A program made the translations under genes and the position numbers. Under the pieces are notes generated by a model that saw only the letters and a list, made by a program, of their open reading frames with translations, did no database searches and had not been told where the DNA came from. From contig JAAAIG010000006.1 in assembly GCA_015852425.1 (NCBI GenBank), positions 70,968-134,967 on the forward strand: a stretch of 64,000 bases of DNA, read 5' to 3'. Positions within the stretch are counted from its first letter, which is position 1, and every line of letters starts with the position of its first letter. This DNA is from Gryganskiella cystojenkinii. Lineage: Eukaryota > Mortierellomycota > Mortierellomycetes > Mortierellales > Mortierellaceae. Below are positions 24,922 to 29,445 of this stretch, piece by piece.

Positions 24922-25176
24922 TTAGTTGGGTTTCTTGCGGAAGGACACGCCTTCACTCAGGCGAGCGAGACCACCAGTGGGCTGGGAGAGGACCATGCTG
25001 CACTTGGGACAGTTGACGACGGTATCGGCATGAGAGAACAAGGGGGTGATAGCTTGACAACCGGAGCACTTGACGTCCATATAAAACGAGTTTGGGCTCT
25101 GAACGAGACGCTTGAGCTTGTGGGACGTTTGGTCAGCGGCAGCGGAGGGGTTGAGGATATCGTAGGCAAGAGTCAT
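24922..25176 (-). CDS. RPS27: 40S ribosomal protein eS27 (S27e)
   Basis: A small-subunit ribosomal protein of 84 residues, the usual length. A single exon begins at [11 protein letters not shown] and carries the family core [18 protein letters not shown]. The zinc finger is C-x2-C (CSGC), a 15-residue spacer with FSHADTVV, and C-x2-C (CPKC), followed by QPTGG and a basic end. A TATA box stands 72 nt upstream of the start. It is transcribed toward the cohesin gene. Identity is certain; the absence of introns is somewhat unusual beside its intron-rich neighbours. Confidence 0.97.
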
Positions 25177-25882
25177 TTTGTTTATGCGTGTGATGAGAGT
25201 AAGATGGAATGAGAAGAGAAAGAAAGGAGAGATAGAGCTGCGCCTCTTTTATATACATATGTGCCAAGGAAGGGAGATCGGATTTTGGGATTCTGGGATC
25301 GGGATCGGATCGAGAAAAGGCAGAACTGGACCAATGGCACCAAGGAGATCGGCCTTTGCAGCTGAAAGCTACGATTGATTTATTGGACTGGCATGGTGTC
25401 TGACCAAGGCCTAAAAAGGAGTTTTTACAAAGAAGGAGCCGGACTGGGCAACGAAGACCATGGAAGGATGAGGGAGATTGGTGGCGTTTCGGTACAGTTT
25501 CTAACTTTCATTTCATTTCCAGCCGCAGACTGCGCCCAGTAAGAATCCTAAATAAAAAAATGAAATGACATCAGTTCAATTTCAAAATGCCATGTGACCA
25601 ATTTGCTAAAAAAGACGGTCACAAAAGAAGAGAGGGTCGCCCGGAGAGAGGGGCGCGCGCACCATGAGTGGGAAACGAGGGGCGAGAGAAGCAAATTACT
25701 TTGTTTCCTTTCCATTCCATTCTCCAATTCAAACATTTCTTTTGAACAATTCCTTTTGTGCACAGCTTTTCATTCATTAAAAAAAGCAATAACAAGCCTC
25801 TCTTTGGTACAACAACGCCACCAACCTTTTCCTCCCCCCAACACCCTTCCCTACAACGACGTCTTCTACCAGCTAACCTTCA
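25177..25882. other. Divergent intergenic region (eS27 / antizyme)
   Basis: Promoter region shared by the minus-strand eS27 gene and the plus-strand antizyme gene. The antizyme side (25690-25880) is pyrimidine/CAA-rich. Apart from the TATA box annotated separately, no element was recognised. Confidence 0.5.
25248..25255 (-). promoter_or_regulatory. TATA box of the eS27 gene
   Basis: Minus-strand TATATAAA, 72 nt upstream of the eS27 start codon and followed by purine-rich leader sequence. Its position fits a highly expressed ribosomal-protein promoter. Confidence 0.6.
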
Positions 25883-27246
25883 ATGGAGGGCTTTAATAAC
25901 AGCACGACCACCACAACCACAACCACCAGTGCCGCCAGTAGTATAATCAGCTTGAATTTACCCCTCGACAGCTTTGCGTCTGTTGCCGTTCCGACCATGA
26001 ACCGATCGATCCACTCGGACATCCAGGCGGTCTGCTTTGCTGAGGATGCGACCAAGGGGCTGCACTGCTATGTCTATTCTACCTGTACGTAGCAACCTAC
26101 CATTGTCTGTATCTGGGCGTGCAATTGCGAGAAACAATGAAACTGAACGAAAAAAAAAGGGAGATAGAGAGATGAAAGGAGGCTGCACCGATGATCGCTT
26201 TTGTTGACACTTCTTTTTACTCAACACACTTGTCCATTTCTGGACACTTCGACCCCATAAATCCTAACTGTGCTTTTCTTGTTTTTTTTCTTTTTTCTAC
26301 CAAACAGTGGAGGGCAGAGGCCAGTGGCGTTCCTGACATCGCCATTAATGATTGCGCGATGATGCTCACGGGTCTCTGTGGCAGCGAGACCCGTGAGCAA
26401 AGTCGCCACCTCCCTTCTCGAGCGGTTGCTTCAGCCAAAGAAACTGCACTGTTTGTGAGGGAGATGAAGGAAGGGGTTGTACAAGGTCAACAACAAGGGG
26501 TCTCTTGCACTAGCGCTGGTATGACGGAGAATGACGGTAGTTCCTTTATTCAACAACAACAAAAGCTCAAAGGTGCGGCGGTGTCGTCTTCAAGTCAATA
26601 TCAAGTCGATGCAACGTTAACGATTACCTCGACGGACAGCAAGATGAATACCTGGCTCGGATTCAAGTCTCAAGGCGCACTGTATTTGCGTGGCAACGGT
26701 TGGAACGATATGGACATTCGTGAGGTATAAAAAGAAACAAGCAACAGTTGTTGCGGTTGAGATGCAAACTTTCTATTTTTGTTTGCCTGAACTGGAATCA
26801 GCAGCTTGGGCCTAGCAAGAAGCTTGGTTTTTTTTTGTGTTGACAAACTTGTTACTTTCTGATGTGATAGAGTGTTGTCGCCGCCTTGGATCTGGCAGAG
26901 GAACAATTGAATTGTCACACCGTGTACCTATGTCTCGAGAAGACTAATGAGGATCTTGGTAAGGAGTTCTACGCTGTTCTTGATAAAACGCTGAACGTAC
27001 AACAGAAGCGGGGTTTTTTTACTGACAATCTTTTACTCCTTTCTTGCGATTCCTCGCCACTTTTTTCTGTCTTTTTCCCCATGCTTTGTTCTCCTTTGAA
27101 CCTGGCAAACACTGTCACTCTTCGCCCTCCGACTCCTTGCAGCAAAACTTGTCCGAGCCTTGATGTATGCTGGATTTGAGGTCGTCCATCCCGGTGTTTT
27201 GGCGCATGCGGATCCAAAATACCTGGTTCTCGGCATGGAACTATAA
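25883..27246 (+). CDS. OAZ1: Ornithine decarboxylase antizyme, +1 programmed frameshift
   Basis: Binds ornithine decarboxylase, inhibits it and sends it to the proteasome, closing the polyamine feedback loop. Exons: 25883-26084, 26308-26724, 26871-26958, 27143-27246. Joining exons 1 and 2 gives a zero-frame of 76 codons that ends ...TGG CGT TCC TGA at 26334-26336. The antizyme body lies in the +1 frame from GAC at 26335. The total after the shift is about 269 residues. Family landmarks in the second frame are GALYLRGNGW, ALDLAEEQLNCHTVYLCLEK and ALMYAGFEVVHPG. A donor at 26959 joins ...EDL to AKLVRAL and restores the family alignment; a later GT would not. Antizyme frameshifting is stimulated by high polyamines in all known cases, and the TCC-TGA context is nearly the animal one. 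Identity is secure. The first exon's start is less certain because M39 (MNRSIHS) is an alternative. Confidence 0.93.
26331..26336 (+). promoter_or_regulatory. Programmed +1 frameshift site (TCC TGA)
   Basis: Zero-frame codons TGG CGT TCC TGA, next base C. Reading T-C-C then skipping the T of TGA continues as GAC ATC GCC in the antizyme frame. The TCC-TGA pair and a preceding TGG match the shift site of known antizymes. Confidence 0.92.
26363..26399 (+). promoter_or_regulatory. Perfect 14-bp hairpin downstream of the frameshift site
   Basis: Left arm 26363-26376 (TGCTCACGGGTCTC), a 9-nt loop at 26377-26385, and right arm 26386-26399 (GAGACCCGTGAGCA) pair at all 14 positions. It begins 26 nt after the TGA and lies within coding sequence of the +1 frame. 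A role in stimulating the shift or sensing polyamines is inferred. The spacing is longer than the usual 5-9 nt. Confidence 0.75.
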
Positions 27247-28177: not shown

Positions 28178-29445
28178 ATGCCTTCTTCAACGATATCCAA
28201 GAACCTTTTCGTCTTTGACTTTGACTGGTAGGACGATCGATCTGACAGACAGAATGCGGTGGAATTGAAAATCTGCAGGATAACTCAGCCCTCTCTCTCC
28301 CCTCGGTCTTCCTATTTATTTATTTTTTTGACTCCTCTACTTTTAGGACCCTGATCGAAGCTGACTCGGACTATTGGGTTATGGAAAAGCTTGGTGGTCT
28401 GACTAGACAAGAGTTTGACAAGTCCTATTCAAACGTTCAGTGGACAGATCTGCAGTAGGGTTCTTTTATTCGTGCACAATTGTTATTCCTGTTCAACGTC
28501 ACATATGACAACCAGACGGGACTCAATATCAGATGTTAACCGGAATTATATTTGATTTATTGTCATAATACGTAGGGACATGCTGCTCGGTCGTTTGTTT
28601 GATCGTGGTGTGACCAATGAACAACTGGAGGCGACTCTGCGCCAGATCCCCATGATGCCCGAGACGATCGCCGCGCTCCGTCTGATGAAATCTCAGGGAT
28701 CCGAACTCGCGATCCTCTCGGACGCAAACACTTTTTACATCGACACCATCCTCAAGGTAACGCAAAACCTTACAAAGGCATGATCCTTCCTGATTTTATC
28801 GATTTTGATTTGCATAGTGCTGACATTTCATTTCGCCTTTTTTTCACCATCTAGGCCCATAAGATCGACGACTTGTTCTCAAAGGTCATCACAAATCCTT
28901 CCCATTTTGATGAACGAGGAAGACTTCATGTGGCAAGGTTTCATGGAGCGGAGAAACCCCCACACGGATGCCCTCGTCCCTGTGCCGTCAACTTGTGTAA
29001 AGGAAAGGAGCTTCAAAAGATGATTGATTCACAGCACTGGGATCGGGTCGTGTACATGGGTGACTCGACCAATGATTTTTGTCCGTCGACAAGACTTCAG
29101 AGGTAAATGGTCAGCGAGCGCAAATCAGAGCAAGGTTGCATTTTCGAGAGGAATTTACTTGGATGTAAACTTTTCTTTTAATGGGGAGACTGATTTTTTT
29201 TTTTTTTTTTTTCATTTCCTTCCCCGTCCATCGTTCTTGTGTTATCTAGTAAGGACGTTGTTCTCGCTCGAGCAAATCTCTTGCTGGAAAAGGCCATCAG
29301 GGCACAGCCAGAATTGGTCCAAGCCAATATCATCTACTGGTCCTCACCCAAGGATGTTCTCACGGCTACGCGAGCCCTGTTTGATATCCCGTCTTCAAAA
29401 CTCGTGGTCACTCCTGCATACTCCGAGATTGCCCAGGTTGTATAG
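28178..29445 (+). CDS. PHOSPHO1/PHOSPHO2-type HAD phosphatase
   Basis: A haloacid-dehalogenase-fold phosphatase of the PHOSPHO family, whose members hydrolyse phosphocholine/phosphoethanolamine or pyridoxal phosphate. Exons 28178-28227, 28347-28454, 28576-28756, 28855-29102, 29250-29445 give 260 residues, about the family length. The nucleophile motif is FDFDWTL (residues ~13-19, DxDxT with Trp). Motif II is the serine in AILSDANTFYI. The glycine/acid motif is VVYMGDSTNDFCPS. Metal and catalytic residues therefore look intact. Between them is the family segment with several Cys and His (HGCPRPCAVNLCKG). The substrate cannot be told from sequence. The gene converges on the WDR5 gene. Confidence 0.88.

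Follow-up and report, generated by a model that had tools for sequence, protein, structure and literature searches.

The antizyme gene and its +1 shift site

The window, a 64-kb stretch of Gryganskiella cystojenkinii DNA, contains an antizyme gene of four exons (Table 1), the ends of which were placed by splice signals and protein comparison. Exon 2 is flanked by an acceptor CAG at 26305-26307 and a donor GTATAA at 26725. When exons 1 and 2 are joined, frame 0 reads ...YSTLEGRGQWRS and closes with QWRS at TGG CGT TCC TGA C. Omitting one base at this stop codon opens a full antizyme of 269 amino acids, whose C-terminal core (P0001) matches the Pfam family ODC_AZ (PF02100, E 1.3e-14). The protein is 100% identical over 131 amino acids to BGZ83_009160 of Gryganskiella cystojenkinii (Mortierellaceae, Mortierellomycota).

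Table 1. The antizyme gene, its shift site and the downstream hairpin, in positions of the window
Feature	Position	Strand	Basis
Antizyme exon 1 (ORF1, frame 0), ATG to ...ACC T; donor GTACGT follows	25883..26084	+	joined reading frame
Antizyme exon 2, with the last part of ORF1, the shift site, the hairpin and the first part of ORF2 (+1 frame)	26308..26724	+	joined reading frame
GUGGCGU immediately 5' of the shift codon, in the place of 'module A'	26324..26330	+	sequence; module A as described in PMC4505036
+1 shift site UCC_UGA_C; UGA at 26334-26336	26331..26337	+	sequence, joined reading frame
Spacer, 19 nt, stop codon to basal helix P1	26337..26355	+	sequence
Basal helix P1, 5' strand GCGAU, partner 26402-26406	26356..26360	+	inverted-repeat list, fold; same in paralog
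Main stem P2, 5' arm, 14 nt, TGCTCACGGGTCTC	26363..26376	+	inverted-repeat list, stem scan, fold
Apical loop UGUGGCAGC, 9 nt; 2 more bp possible around GGCA	26377..26385	+	fold
Main stem P2, 3' arm, 14 nt, GAGACCCGTGAGCA	26386..26399	+	inverted-repeat list, stem scan, fold
Basal helix P1, 3' strand GUCGC	26402..26406	+	inverted-repeat list, fold
Antizyme exon 3 (ORF2, +1 frame)	26871..26958	+	joined reading frame
Antizyme exon 4; stop TAA at 27244-27246	27143..27246	+	joined reading frame

A long hairpin downstream of the shift site

The main stem of the hairpin (P2) consists of 14 perfect base pairs and its first base lies 26 nt past the stop codon. A basal helix of 5 bp (P1), which the original prediction had missed, joins P2 across a 2x2 internal loop, so that the structure starts 19 nt after the stop codon. 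P2 sits in the longest inverted repeat listed within 60 nt in the window, and no other perfect stem with a loop of 3-15 nt reaches 10 bp anywhere in the 64 kb. None of 40 dinucleotide shuffles of the window contained a 14-bp stem, the longest shuffled stem being 12 bp. The predicted fold of the 51-nt element formed by P1 and P2 has an energy of -37 kcal/mol (z -7.4 against shuffles), and the 113 nt around the hairpin fold at -57.4 kcal/mol (z -4.7).

Synonymous recoding of the encoded peptide rarely restores such a stem. With uniform codon choice 38 of 200,000 recodings pair as well as the natural sequence, and 451 of 200,000 do so when codons are weighted by the usage of both antizyme genes described here. 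The original prediction, made from the sequence alone, had placed the end of ORF1 at TGG CGT TCC TGA C with the antizyme body in the +1 frame, which the joined reading frame confirms. The 14-bp stem, the 9-nt loop and the 26-nt distance that it gave proved exact when the letters were rechecked, and its view that the palindrome is improbable by chance is borne out by the shuffles and by the small number of recodings that pair equally.

A second antizyme gene retains the stem

A 129-nt search of the 35-Mb genome found one further locus (G000:C561), with 86% identity over 100 nt. This locus is a second antizyme gene, paralog B (P0061, BGZ83_008244), in which ORF1 ends CGG CCC TGA C. Here too the omission of one base opens the full +1 frame, which contains the ODC_AZ domain (PF02100, E 1.2e-12).

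Paralog B retains 12 of the 14 P2 pairs and all five P1 pairs. Two of the P2 pairs are kept by double substitution, G-C being replaced by A-U at 26370/26392 and U-A by C-G at 26373/26389. One further pair changes from U-A to U-G, both end pairs are lost, and a pair is gained below the stem at 26361/26401. The 3' arm encodes RAC in paralog B and ETR in the window gene, so three consecutive amino-acid replacements have been absorbed with most of the stem intact. The 51-nt element of paralog B folds at -33.9 kcal/mol (z -6.1); within 113 nt of context it stands out only slightly (z -2.1; 7 of 200 shuffles are equally stable). Recodings of paralog B that pair as well number 1,661 (uniform) and 4,175 (weighted) of 200,000, a weaker result than for the window gene. 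Among residues shared by the two genes, the codons are identical at 17 of 23 positions from the start of exon 2 to the end of the hairpin versus 47 of 106 elsewhere (Fisher p 0.012).

Since paralog B keeps 12 of 14 pairs, two of them by double substitution, in spite of the different residues encoded by its 3' arm, the hairpin is a feature of the RNA and not an accident of coding. A mobile or repeated palindrome was also considered and rejected, since the window holds no second exact copy of the arm and just one match with three mismatches, below the chance expectation, and since the degenerate stem pattern, searched for exactly in the 35-Mb genome, occurs at the two antizyme genes only.

The pairing record in Mortierellaceae proteins

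Facing codons in the stem pair position 1 with 3, 2 with 2 and 3 with 1, and the encoded proteins therefore carry a record of the stem. The alignment comprised 112 sequences, namely the two genes read through the shift and 110 database proteins, three of which had been shortened beforehand; the second protein search scored the best 7,995 candidates by word sharing. Forty-five sequences were set aside (32 that join exon 1 inside the 5' arm, 10 without an arm and 3 that are not comparable); P0108 and P0110, which came from the second protein search and are from outside the Mortierellaceae or unplaced, could not be compared. The 67 sequences with both arms represent 29 distinct arm pairs, compared at four inner codon pairs, the DNA being that of the two genes and the rest being read from protein.

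With the best codons that the residues allow, 342 of 348 pairs can form across the 29 arm pairs. Re-dealing the 3' arms gave a mean of 335.0 pairs and reached 342 in none of 20,000 trials, and for the middle bases 110 of 116 pairs compare with a re-dealt mean of 105.4, the observed value being reached in 3 of 20,000; this control ignores relatedness in both cases. The true register allows 0.983 of pairs versus 0.57-0.74 in slid registers, a control that partly corrects for relatedness.

Several arm pairs have changed on both sides. Two-sided changes of the middle base are Asp-Val for Gly-Ala in P0036 (Gamsiella) and P0084 (Entomortierella beljakovae), Ile-Tyr for Thr-Cys in P0032 and Pro-Gly for Leu-Glu in P0092 and P0105. 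A two-sided Pro-Gly change is found at the apical codon pair of P0024, P0040 and P0072, and a two-sided Ser/Ala-Gly change in Actinomortierella (P0075-P0077). A midpoint-rooted FastTree tree of the core domain, whose support is patchy, places P0036, P0032, P0024, P0040/P0072 and P0075-P0077 apart. In this tree the short metagenome fragments, including P0092 and P0105, cluster artificially, and P0084 is too short to be placed.

One mismatch is forced in six of the 29 arm pairs (P0015, P0032, P0035, P0091, P0095 and P0096). In the 32 set-aside models with a join the apical codon pair is the only readable one, and it allows all three pairs in 29 of them, the exceptions being P0030, P0050 and P0078. 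Because of these mismatches the stem may be decaying in some lineages. In all 38 sequences that show the stretch in question, 10 residues separate the shift site from the stem's first codon (Leu/Phe/Pro); 74 of the 112 do not show it. The original prediction had named base pairing in relatives as a point on which it could fail. The pairing is kept, with compensatory changes in the DNA of paralog B and, as read from proteins, in the Mortierellaceae, which supports a functional RNA structure tied to the shift site.

The joins inside the 5' arm themselves bear on the pairing. In the database model of paralog B the false join lies at ACAG|GC of the Thr-Gly codons. The residue opposite the join is Cys (UGY), the U of which pairs with that A, in all 32 such models; in the 65 sequences without the join it is Cys in 42, Ser in 15, Arg in 5 and Tyr in 3. 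Where Arg (CGY) or Ser (AGY) lies opposite, pairing predicts that there is no AG; the window gene, which has Arg, reads ACG at this place. If the other models join where paralog B does, the association of ACA with Cys is a suggestive, indirect check on the pairing at the nucleotide level, in a comparison that mixes pipelines and lineages, includes some metagenome reading frames without splice modelling, counts Tyr, which would not forbid the join, and contains three models of the 32 that make Arg and not Cys at the join.

The basal helix and alternative folds

P1 is attainable in relatives, at least five of six pairs being possible in 36 of 38 sequences. Its covariation is not significant: of the 12 distinct residue pairs seen at the inner codon pair, 9 can pair at the middle base versus a shuffled mean of 8.0, and 1,628 of 5,000 shuffles reach the observed value. 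The outer codon pair has only three distinct combinations and is uninformative.

Alternative folds of this region were also considered. Positions 26337-26406 alone fold into two adjacent hairpins, as the 25 nt directly after the stop codon (26337-26361) can form a 6-bp hairpin of their own (CAUCGC/GCGAUG) that competes with P1. Both strands of this helix are identical in paralog B. It forms in silico and was rejected as not kept, all six pairs being possible in 14 of 38 sequences and at most four in another 14. An H-type pseudoknot between the loop (26378-26382) and 26405-26409 is possible in the window gene and is weakened in paralog B, which has GCCGG there. A hairpin predicted at the shift site itself (AGUGGCG/CGCCAUU) was set aside, as the ribosome would cover it. 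No Rfam family reaches its gathering score over the 64-kb window; at E values of up to 10, positions 26300-26480 give eight sub-threshold matches, to miRNA and snoRNA models only.

Comparison with known antizyme stimulators

In Schizosaccharomyces pombe, another fungus, the antizyme mRNA has a distal 3' contribution to frameshifting; that stimulator is not known to have a defined secondary structure. Animal antizyme mRNAs resemble the present case in having an RNA structure, a pseudoknot, 3' of a +1 shift site. The mammalian AZ1 pseudoknot begins 3 nt 3' of the shift site according to PMC5009743, in contrast to 19-26 nt here, and no Rfam family is found here at gathering score. The same source gives 6-9 nt as the usual distance of 3' stimulators and 12-15 nt for a minority, both of which the hairpin exceeds.

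The closest counterpart is found in the Basidiomycota. According to PMC4505036, which aligns 54 sequences and reports that four lack the structure, a 3' structure conserved in their antizyme mRNAs begins 19 nt past the shift site and lies just beyond the mRNA tunnel. The distance that the original prediction had called unusual is in this light less so. Deletion of the Basidiomycota structure reduces frameshifting 1.7- to 2-fold in HEK293T cells and 3.75-fold in S. pombe; its stimulatory and polyamine-sensitising effects are described there as weaker, the nascent peptide signal and module A outweighing it (PMC4505036). In Coprinopsis, module A starts with the third base of codon -4, a G, and codon -2 is CGU; a neighbouring UGG codon is mentioned at a position that the passage leaves uncertain (PMC4505036). 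The window gene shares both the G and the CGU at these places.

The two systems are alike in that both concern +1 frameshifting of fungal antizymes and have covarying stems, and they differ in several respects, as far as the account in PMC4505036 allows them to be compared. The 19-nt start coincides with that of P1 (26356, 19 nt after UGA), which lacks covariation support, whereas the well-supported P2 starts at 26 nt. The Basidiomycota structure consists of two directly adjacent stem-loops, while here there is one extended stem-loop with an internal loop; the second hairpin that could form beside it in the window gene has all six pairs in only 14 of the 38 sequences. AAAU abuts the 5' end of the Basidiomycota structure, and here UUGC (26352-26355, TTGC in the DNA) precedes P1 and ATGA (26359-26362) precedes P2. 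Loop 2 of the Basidiomycota structure is nearly invariant and 7 nt long. The shift codon is UUU there and UCC or CCC here.

That the Mortierellomycota hairpin and the Basidiomycota structure go back to one ancestral distal element is a speculative and rather doubtful proposition. If it were true, a +1 stimulator outside the channel together with a short 5' module beside the shift codon would be the old fungal state, and the animal pseudoknots near the shift site would be a separate solution.

In the literature covered, no paper on antizyme frameshifting in Mortierella or the Mucoromycota was found, the one paper retrieved being on Heterobasidion transcripts. Among the titles and abstract openings listed, fungal antizyme 3' structures were found in PMC4505036 and PMC5009743 and in none beyond these. 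Zygomycota antizymes were identified earlier by Ivanov and Atkins 2007, as cited in PMC4505036, and the hairpin may therefore already be noted there.

A proposed role in frameshifting

With UGA in the ribosomal A site the structure would lie just outside the mRNA entry channel, a placement based on the length of the channel. We consider it likely that antizyme +1 frameshifting in the Mortierellaceae involves the hairpin as a conserved RNA element acting in cis. This explanation draws on the arrangement of the gene, the predicted fold, the pairing (in the DNA of two genes and the proteins of others) and the fixed spacing. We infer frameshifting as the target, along with how strong the effect is, how polyamines alter it and how the ribosome is contacted; the hairpin is tied to frameshifting by its fixed distance from the shift site, by the conserved pairing and by its presence in both paralogs. 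Most likely it would make the +1 shift at UCC_UGA (in the paralog, CCC_UGA) modestly more frequent and more responsive to polyamines, either because the ribosome slows or because the entry side of the 40S subunit comes under load when the base of the hairpin is reached. Selection on pairing would then keep the stem while the encoded peptide drifts. Because related genes seem to retain the pairing where the protein differs, the hairpin probably belongs to the polyamine-sensing switch. A distal stimulator of modest strength is suggested by the Basidiomycota, where PMC4505036 describes the effects of the 3' structure as weaker and those of the nascent peptide and module A as larger.

Other explanations have to be weighed against this. 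The hairpin might slow ribosomes that have already shifted, so that those queued behind them dwell longer near the shift site, and the very stable fold inside ORF2 is in keeping with this. A ribosome footprint of about 30 nt would put the trailing ribosome upstream of the shift site when the leading one meets P1, and the hairpin would be half open once the spacing fits. A queueing scheme of this kind is described for the Saccharomyces cerevisiae antizyme in PMC5009743, but on the spacing given above it is unlikely to apply here. Regulation of the mRNA in another way, through stability, localisation or escape from the decay triggered by a stop codon, would also account for a conserved structure 3' of an early stop codon; this we judge to be quite unlikely, as the fixed distance in all 38 sequences that show it and the Basidiomycota precedent favour frameshifting. 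Chance, or the encoded peptide alone, is an extremely improbable source of the palindrome. Both peptides lend themselves to pairing, with an average of 8-10 of 15 pairs after recoding, but in both genes few of the 200,000 recodings pair as well (38 or 451, and 1,661 or 4,175 in the paralog), and the compensations in the paralog, the covariation of the arms and the restriction to two genomic places speak against it.

The question of splicing is raised by the 32 database proteins, of 110, whose gene models splice exon 1 to a place within the 5' arm and thereby bypass the stop codon. On this account the 5' arm could contain a cryptic 3' splice site (ACAG|G), hidden by the hairpin, whose use would join ORF1 to ORF2 without frameshifting. 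The window gene, however, lacks an AG, with ACGGG at this place, although its stem is the longer of the two, and paralog B has no pyrimidine tract before the AG. Such joins are moreover expected from predictors that are forced to repair a frame, and all 32 have Cys opposite and none Ser or Arg, so that we regard the explanation as very unlikely. Much the same weight is given to a switch in which the 5' strand of P1 pairs with the CAUCGC after the stop codon until the ribosome covers the latter, and then with GUCGC, thereby extending the hairpin. The two adjacent hairpins in the fold of 26337-26406 and the identical strands in paralog B would fit a switch, but the alternative helix is complete in only 14 of the 38 sequences and limited to at most four pairs in 14.

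If the hairpin is a stimulator of frameshifting, as we prefer, its position is of wider interest, for stimulators that act beyond the mRNA channel are at odds with the common view that the ribosome's unwinding site engages the structure during the shift. A very stable, simple and covarying hairpin at a fixed 19-26 nt within one fungal family, and in two paralogs with different shift codons (UCC and CCC), would be a clean natural system, suited to asking how a distal RNA structure affects +1 frameshifting and polyamine sensing. There is also a consequence for annotation, as the 32 of 110 database proteins whose models join exon 1 inside the hairpin skip the shift site.

Related genes and neighbours

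The N-termini of database antizymes are unreliable, the models that bypass the shift site including P0016, P0025 and P0061. The shift site of paralog B is CCC_UGA_C (L004 reverse strand, about 2304-2180, within G000:C561). According to PMC5009743, an extensive survey knew of no more than two antizymes with CCC_UGA. Relatives of paralog B read GGP-D in the +1 frame, which gives a shift codon NCC, N being any base; in the Mortierellaceae, CCC_UGA may be the regular shift site of one of the two antizyme genes. In P0013 (Haplosporangium bisporale) and P0035 (Podila epicladia) the +1 residues after the shift codon are P-S and not P-D. Since P-S together with a frame-0 stop is possible only with UAG (CCU AGY), NCC_UAG is the probable shift site of these two antizymes. 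A single forced stem mismatch is also present in each of the related Podila-type sequences P0035 and P0091.

Both antizyme genes are followed by a gene with a phosphatase-like motif, TLIEADSDYW, which was read by eye (window 28246-29100; L004 reverse strand from about 220 down). This shared neighbour points to a segmental duplication as the origin of the two antizyme genes. The fused database model P0086 carries PF06888. Upstream of the window gene, on the minus strand at 24922-25248, lies a neighbour with a zinc ribbon (CSGC...CPKC), which we take to resemble ribosomal protein eS27.
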